Shown piece after piece: positions 35,137 through 36,513 of a stretch of DNA of 64,000 bases. The stretch is taken from positions 992,001 to 1,056,000 of the forward strand of contig NZ_JQNR01000003.1 of assembly GCF_000745345.1 (NCBI RefSeq), read 5' to 3'. The notes beneath the pieces were generated by a model. That model was not told the DNA's origin and made no database searches. It saw only the letters and a list, made by a program, of their open reading frames with translations. Position 1 is the first letter of the stretch. Every line of letters begins with the position of its first letter. The translations under genes and the position numbers were made by a program. The stretch comes from Actinacidiphila yeochonensis CN732. GTDB lineage: Bacteria; Actinomycetota; Actinomycetes; Streptomycetales; Streptomycetaceae.

Positions 35137-36513
35137 ATGCACTCCCCCCCTCCCACCCCTTCCCCCACCGCCCGCAACCGGCACCCCCACGACGACGCGC
35201 CCGACACCGCCGAGGCGTTCCGCCGTCTCGCGAGGCTGCCGGAGGGCGCGAGCAAGGAGCGGCTGCGGCAGGAGATCGCCACGGACTGGCTCCCCATGGC
35301 GCACCGGCTCGCCGGCCGGTACCGCAACCGCGGCGAGTCGCTGGACGACCTGCGGCAGGTGGCGGCGCTCGGCCTGGTCAAGGCGGTCAGCCGCTACGAT
35401 CCGGCCCGCGGCACGGCCTTCGAGAGCTATGCCGTGCCGACCATAGACGGCGAGATCAAGCGCCACTTCCGCGACTGCATGTGGTCGGTGCACGTACCGC
35501 GCCGCGTCCAGGTGCTGCGCGCCCGGGTGCGGGCCGCCGCGCAGGAGCTGGCCCAGAGCGCACCCGGCCACGCGCCCACGGCCGCCGAGATCGCCCACCA
35601 CGCCGGACTCACCGAGCAGGAGACCACGGACGGGCTGGAGGCCCTGGAGAGCTTCAGCTCGCTCTCCCTGGACGCCCAGTGCACCGGCGCCGCGGACTCG
35701 GCGGGCCCCATGTCCCTGGCCGACACCCTCGGCGCCCCCGATCCGGCACTGGACGTGGTCCTGGACCGCGAGGCCGTCAAGCCGCAGCTGTGCCGCCTCC
35801 CCGAACGCGAGCGGGAGATCCTCTACCTGCGGTTCTTCGGCGGGATGACGCAGAGCATGATCGCCGAACGGCTCGGCATCTCGCAGATGCACGTCTCCCG
35901 GCTGATCAGCCGCTCATGCTCGGCCATCCGAGCCGAGGTGGCGGGTGGCGAGGAAGCGGTGGAAGCTGCCTCGGACGACCCGGCGGACGGCAGCCGCCCC
36001 CAGAGCACGGAGGGCGAGGGCCGCGAAGCCGACGGGGAGGGCACCACCACCAGGAGCGGCACCCGCCGCGCCGACCGTCACACCCCCACCCGGGACGCCT
36101 CCGGCTCCGGCTCCGGCTCCGGCTCCGGCTCCGGCTCCGGCTCCGGCTCCGGCTCCGGCTCCGGCTCCGGCTCCCAGCATGGAGCGCCCCCGAGCGCCGA
36201 GCCTGCGGCAGCCGGCGTCCGTGGCCGAGGTGCGGCCCGGTCGGCCCCCAACGGAGGATCGGCATCGGGCGCGCGCACCGAAACCCGGCGGGCAGAGGCT
36301 CGCAAGACCGGGAGCCACACCGGCGGCGGCGCCGGCAAGAAGAACCCGGCGTCCCCTGGCGGTGCGACCCGGGCGGACCGCGACAGCGGAACCCCGGGCA
36401 AGGCCCGTCCACGGCGCGCCAACAGGCCCCGCCGCGACTCCGGCAGTGCGGAGAGCCATCGCGTTCGGAAGGGCAAGGAGGACCCGGCCGCACCGGTGCG
36501 ACGGGCCGCCTGA
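35137..36513 (+). CDS. SigB/F/G-family RNA polymerase sigma factor with long disordered tail
   Basis: 458 residues; the sigma part is residues 1-270. Region 2 (DWLPMAHRLAGRYRNRGESL, VAALGLVKAVSRYDP, FESYAVPTIDGEIKRHFRD), region 3 (PTAAEIAHHAGLTEQE) and region 4 (LPEREREILYLRFFGGMTQS followed by MIAERLGISQMHVSRLIS) are all intact. This subfamily controls stress response and spore maturation in Streptomyces and is usually held by anti-sigma factors; none is encoded next to it. Family members usually end near residue 270. Here about 188 more residues follow: acidic, then a Ser-Gly repeat at about 322-346, then strongly basic. Third-position G/C stays high through the tail, so it is coding. Confidence 0.9.
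   Translation: MHSPPPTPSPTARNRHPHDDAPDTAEAFRRLARLPEGASKERLRQEIATDWLPMAHRLAGRYRNRGESLDDLRQVAALGLVKAVSRYDPARGTAFESYAVPTIDGEIKRHFRDCMWSVHVPRRVQVLRARVRAAAQELAQSAPGHAPTAAEIAHHAGLTEQETTDGLEALESFSSLSLDAQCTGAADSAGPMSLADTLGAPDPALDVVLDREAVKPQLCRLPEREREILYLRFFGGMTQSMIAERLGISQMHVSRLISRSCSAIRAEVAGGEEAVEAASDDPADGSRPQSTEGEGREADGEGTTTRSGTRRADRHTPTRDASGSGSGSGSGSGSGSGSGSGSGSGSQHGAPPSAEPAAAGVRGRGAARSAPNGGSASGARTETRRAEARKTGSHTGGGAGKKNPASPGGATRADRDSGTPGKARPRRANRPRRDSGSAESHRVRKGKEDPAAPVRRAA
36100..36174 (+). repeat. 6-bp repeat TCCGGC, 12.5 copies, coding Ser-Gly
   Basis: A perfect hexanucleotide array inside the sigma factor tail. The unit is a multiple of three, so copy changes lengthen or shorten the Ser-Gly linker without breaking the frame. 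Confidence 0.95.

Follow-up and report, generated by a model that had tools for sequence, protein, structure and literature searches.

A candidate di-alanine degron at the end of a long, probably disordered tail in a SigB/F/G-type sigma factor of Actinacidiphila yeochonensis

The stretch of DNA analysed here, hereafter the window, covers 64,000 nucleotides of the genome of Actinacidiphila yeochonensis CN732 and carries on its forward strand, at positions 35137-36513, an open reading frame of 458 residues (computed mass of the full protein, 47.9 kDa) that its sequence and profile matches identify as a sigma factor of the SigB/F/G type. The ATG at 35137 is preceded, 10 bases to its 5' side, by a putative ribosome-binding site read from the sequence (GAGGAGG, 35120-35126, forward strand). 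The core of the protein, residues 1-267 (35137-35937, forward strand; Pfam and NCBIfam), contains region 2 (PF04542, residues 50-113), region 3 (PF04539, residues 129-184) and region 4 (PF04545, residues 220-265), all above their gathering scores. It is like the SigB/SigF/SigG sigma factors of Streptomyces both in these regions and in its match to TIGR02980 (SigB/F/G), which reaches 257.8 bits for a cut-off of 234.35; the match to NF005514, for SigF of the PRK07122 type, stays at 265 bits below the curated cut-off of 372. An AlphaFold2 model built on an alignment of 27 sequences is confident for most of the core, with weak spots at residues 1-20 (block means of 59-64), 111-120 (66) and 173-208 (below 50). 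According to the available text of PMC8346170, Streptomyces coelicolor possesses nine SigB/SigF/SigG homologues, the level of SigK is under post-translational control, and sigF is located apart from its regulator genes. The RsbW-like ATPase family PF13581 has no match inside the 64,000 nucleotides of the window and 67 in the genome, and because sigF of S. coelicolor is likewise separated from its regulators, the lack of an RsbW gene near the sigma factor gene carries little counter-weight. Elsewhere in the genome, two adjoining SigB-type matches (L003 and L004, G000:C5:941074-943160) resemble in their adjacency the sigF-sigN pair of S. coelicolor described in the same source.

Beyond region 4 the reading frame continues into a tail whose composition changes along its length. 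Residues 268-320 (35938-36096, forward strand), the start of which resembles sister tails of 44-48 residues in the protein alignment, are mildly acidic, with 7 lysines and arginines for 13 aspartates and glutamates and a pI of 4.6. Repeat detection then finds a 6-bp unit, translated as Ser-Gly, in 12.7 perfect copies (36099-36174, forward strand), so that residues 321-346 form an uncharged A(SG)n stretch. The charge count defines a basic, low-complexity part 3' of the array with a weak codon signal (residues 347-454, 36175-36498, forward strand), which is followed on the same strand by the C-terminal RRAA (36499-36510) and a TGA stop (36511-36513); from residue 347 to the last residue, 458, 25 lysines and arginines are set against 9 acidic residues, for a pI of 12.0. 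The sequence-only reading had described an in-frame tail passing from acidic to Ser-Gly to basic, and this description is borne out by the open reading frame, by the charge counts and by an RRAA-stop end shared with relatives. No Pfam family matches the 188-residue tail taken alone at E up to 1, and no solved structure matches its basic part at the same limit. From residue 280 onward the AlphaFold2 model lies mostly below a pLDDT of 50 and contains no secondary structure, as expected for disorder, although such low confidence is also expected in any stretch devoid of relatives; the tail is probably disordered.

The second-longest perfect run of this 6-bp unit in the genome reaches half the length of the array at 36099-36174. 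Among nine other loci with Ser-Gly arrays in the genome, six fit the repeat rule and are open in the Gly-Ser frame, and three did not fit. Within the window, a second 6-bp array of 6.5 copies (32227-32265) lies in the C-terminal tail of the hypC gene (31924-32298, PF01455), where it is read as Ala-Thr repeats, and this genome may be prone to array growth in the tails of its proteins. A 33-bp repeat is also present in about 20 copies at 9295-9969, within an open reading frame of 686 residues (9037-11097); the repeats are of the kind xDAxFxSATFT, which appears to resemble pentapeptide repeats.

How exceptional the tail is can be judged from a comparison set of 121 loci (L001, L009-L099 and L131-L159) that yields 102 distinct homologue sequences, 101 of which were placed in a tree. 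The contig profile scan contributed 80 of 552 confirmed stretches, and 30 loci were taken from a family search that matched 203 of 394 genomes; the counts given here refer to the tails of the comparison set. After residue 267 the window protein extends for 191 residues and the other 101 sequences for 3-48, so that the long tail is confined to one genome among the 102 sequences; as many as 79 tails comprise at most 8 residues, and those of the eight sister rows range from 13 to 48. The claim made beforehand that such a tail is unusual for the B/F/G family is thus upheld. The closest homologue among the matches listed, L009, shares 91% identity over 270 residues, and its tail comprises 20 residues. 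L010, L011 and L012 have tails of 44-48 residues whose first residues resemble those of the window tail in the protein alignment, and the window protein, L009, L010, L012 and L020 (the same gene as L011) have in common similar tail starts and an RRAA end. A run of at least three Ser-Gly pairs occurs in the window tail alone among the 102 sequences. As for other members of the set, L017, L018 and L019 have long branches and are doubtful as orthologues, and L073, which is outside the tree of 101, has a tail of 10 residues ending in PSD. Longer tails (24-46 residues) that likewise end in Ala-Ala are seen in L051, L052, L055, L081, L088 and L090; in L052 and L055, short stretches appear by eye to be duplicated directly before the end.

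Whether the tail is read in the frame proposed deserves some caution. The open frame is weak evidence in itself: when the bases of the tail DNA are shuffled, 939 of 5000 results are open as well, and no stop interrupts any of the three forward frames before 36510. The G+C content by codon position (0.73, 0.53 and 0.94 in the core) still looks coding-like before the array (0.76, 0.68 and 0.90) and becomes nearly flat after it (0.77, 0.78 and 0.80), where the codon score ranks within the bottom 10% of 818 coding windows and 19% of wrong-frame windows score at least as high. A gene hidden in another frame of the tail was considered and rejected, the other frames being worse by codon use, with a small margin after the array. 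That the frame is correct to its end seems best supported by the RRAA-stop shared with relatives, and we infer that the protein is translated to that point. An error of assembly or sequencing, with a true protein ending shortly after region 4, had been the worry attached to the tail; it is recorded in a single genome, repeat arrays are error-prone and there were no reads to inspect. Yet an insertion or deletion error would lengthen the frame instead of shortening the protein, the two other forward frames ending at 36680 and 36831, the frame as read leads to the ancestral C-terminus, and outside the array no other site in the genome closely matches the tail DNA. That worry is thereby weakened, and we find an artefact barely credible.

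The beginning of the tail, similar to that of the 44-48-residue sister tails, and its identical RRAA-stop end suggest an in-frame insertion of about 140 residues between the ancestral start and the ancestral end, the frame stopping at the sister-type RRAA. At the DNA level, the match to L010 extends to 36000 and restarts at 36819, directly 5' of the downstream MarR gene, whose DNA can be aligned for six sister loci out of eight (L010 and L012-L016); the retrieved flanks of the other two (L009 and L011) hold no MarR match. The ancestral tail of this part of the tree would have comprised about 45 residues, part of which L009 would have lost, whereas in the window protein the tail would have grown about four-fold, the fork in the tree of 101 being compatible with either order. 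The Ser-Gly array would have grown by slippage, and the basic low-complexity stretch would be new in the lineage. A search of the genome for a donor of 35990-36500 gave none: its 49 matches include the segment itself, most overlap the array, and the four clear of it lie just before (E of 9.7e-4 and 0.012) or after it (E of 0.29 and 1.0). Across 35 genomes of the genus, the tail protein has no convincing relative. Nineteen genomes, its own included, match at E up to 0.01, and the best foreign match (E of 5e-6) spans the array; five foreign matches starting after tail residue 88 are 35-42% identical and contain 2-3 internal stop codons, and one stop-free match in G021 is 40% identical over tail residues 57-161 (E of 8e-4). 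Internal duplication as the source of the insert was rejected, in view of the absence of any direct repeat of at least 14 bases besides the array; three weak inverted repeats were found.

The element that the sequence-only reading missed is the conserved one, namely the protein end, RAA. An Ala-Ala end is found in 63 of 102 homologues and in 13 of 264 background genes, an excess of about 12-fold, and alanine is the last residue in 80 of 102 homologues. This background consists of genes from the window and from 20 stretches of the same genome, excluding the sigma factor gene, which were called by a rule on G+C by codon position and not by annotation. Eight of the nine rows in the clade of the window protein end in Arg-Ala-Ala, as do 2 of the 264 background genes; the remaining row, L016, ends in CGI. 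The arginine codon of the eight rows is CGG, CGC, CGT or CGA and the next alanine codon GCC or GCG; three hand-typed trees from which L016 was excluded, and which pair the window with L009 (a pairing that the tree of 101 leaves open), count 7-8 synonymous and no non-synonymous changes in the RAA codons. Because the changes are synonymous only while the residues preceding RAA are hardly alignable among the clade rows, the comparison suggests that purifying selection acts on the final three residues. An in-frame insertion retains the C-terminus automatically, so the RRAA of the window protein is by itself no evidence of selection. Of the 102 homologues, 39 do not end in Ala-Ala, and the tree of 101 shows 20 changes in this feature; 29 of the 38 tree rows concerned sit in one Streptomyces subclade of 52 rows, with ends such as VA, GA and AG. 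None of the six paralogue rows of the same genome (L002-L007, of which the overlapping L003 and L004 may belong to a single gene; L008 has no row) ends in Ala-Ala.

Taken together, these comparisons lead us to favour, with moderate confidence, a joint reading in which the tail is a genuine and recent lineage-specific expansion within a short, fast-changing and disordered C-terminal tail, and in which the protein would end in a ClpXP di-alanine degron carried on a disordered tether enlarged by slippage and insertion. Selection would act on RAA, most likely as a di-alanine tag recognised by ClpXP. With the Ala-Ala end held by ClpX, the disordered tail would enter first and the sigma factor would be drawn after it into ClpP, and the amount of sigma factor would track its rate of synthesis and the activity of ClpXP; the insert would lengthen the tether, being probably near neutral and largely without a function of its own. 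The window protein has the Ala-Ala end that is required of such a substrate, a ClpX zinc-finger gene is found in the genome, and the tmRNA tag of the genome ends in ALAA; the arginine before Ala-Ala, where the tmRNA tag has leucine, counts against a degron. A precedent is given by sigma-AntA, an ECF sigma factor of Streptomyces, whose degradation by ClpXP in vitro and whose level in vivo depend on the C-terminal Ala-Ala (available portions of PMC7142297), a role proposed earlier (PMC3933326). Ala-Ala ends 67 of 71 orthologues of sigma-AntA (PMC7142297, PMC3933326), to be compared with 63 of 102 homologues here; a degron in the present family would not be universal, since 39 homologues lack Ala-Ala and one member of the same clade, L016, ends in CGI. 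Furthermore, sigma-AntA lacks region 3, whereas the window protein is of the SigB/F/G type, with arginine at position -3 and a long, probably disordered tail. Among the best matches in the open-licence literature, we found no SigB-type sigma factor for which such a degron has been described.

The whole tail, C-terminus included, could instead be neutral, an end tolerant of insertions on which Ala-Ala is merely inherited in an alanine-rich proteome (alanine makes up 14% of residues). The freely varying length and sequence of the tails, the weak codon signal after the array and the clustering of homologues without Ala-Ala in one subclade all speak for neutrality, but this would leave unaccounted for both the excess of Ala-Ala over the background and an RAA maintained through synonymous changes when the remaining tail can hardly be aligned, and we regard it as rather unlikely. 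It has also been proposed that in this species the basic Ser-Gly tail has a function of its own, in that it binds DNA, RNA or a partner such as an anti-sigma factor and alters promoter output, while the array provides a linker of adjustable length. Its marked positive charge after the array would suit such a role, and removal of the C-terminal extension of the S. coelicolor factor SCO2742 leads in vitro to the transcription of many more genes, with activity about 1.5 times as high (PMC9205884, in the part available). Against this, the tail is absent from all 101 other homologues, close relatives among them, it has neither a domain, nor a structural match, nor a convincing relative in the genus, and its near-flat G+C by codon position suggests a young sequence; binding by the tail thus seems distinctly improbable, and the tuning of linker length by copy number in the array appears without comparative support. 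A combination of these ideas, in which a Streptomycetaceae family of SigB-type sigma factors is subject to a di-alanine ClpXP degron with tail length as an evolving tether, and in which the basic tail here binds nucleic acid while the sigma factor is engaged and thereby hides the degron, so that only idle sigma factor is degraded, has in our opinion a slim prospect of being right.

Sequence after region 4 is not in itself a novelty among sigma factors: SCO2742 and ECF41 carry it, as does the window protein (PMC9205884, PMC3426412), and the accessible text of PMC9205884 counts 17 sigma factors of S. coelicolor with N- or C-terminal extensions of more than 100 residues. The present case differs in that the insert has neither a domain nor a relative. 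ECF41 has a fused regulatory domain (PMC3426412), whereas no domain was found in the window tail, which is restricted to one genome; the presence of region 3 (PF04539) and a tail free of Pfam families led us to reject a sigma factor of the ECF41/ECF42 kind with a regulatory C-terminal domain. Should the degron reading be true, direct proteolysis by ClpXP would govern a sigma factor of the SigB/F/G type, as it does the ECF factor sigma-AntA. The tail itself clearly exemplifies a disordered insertion that is specific to one lineage and leaves the C-terminus in place.
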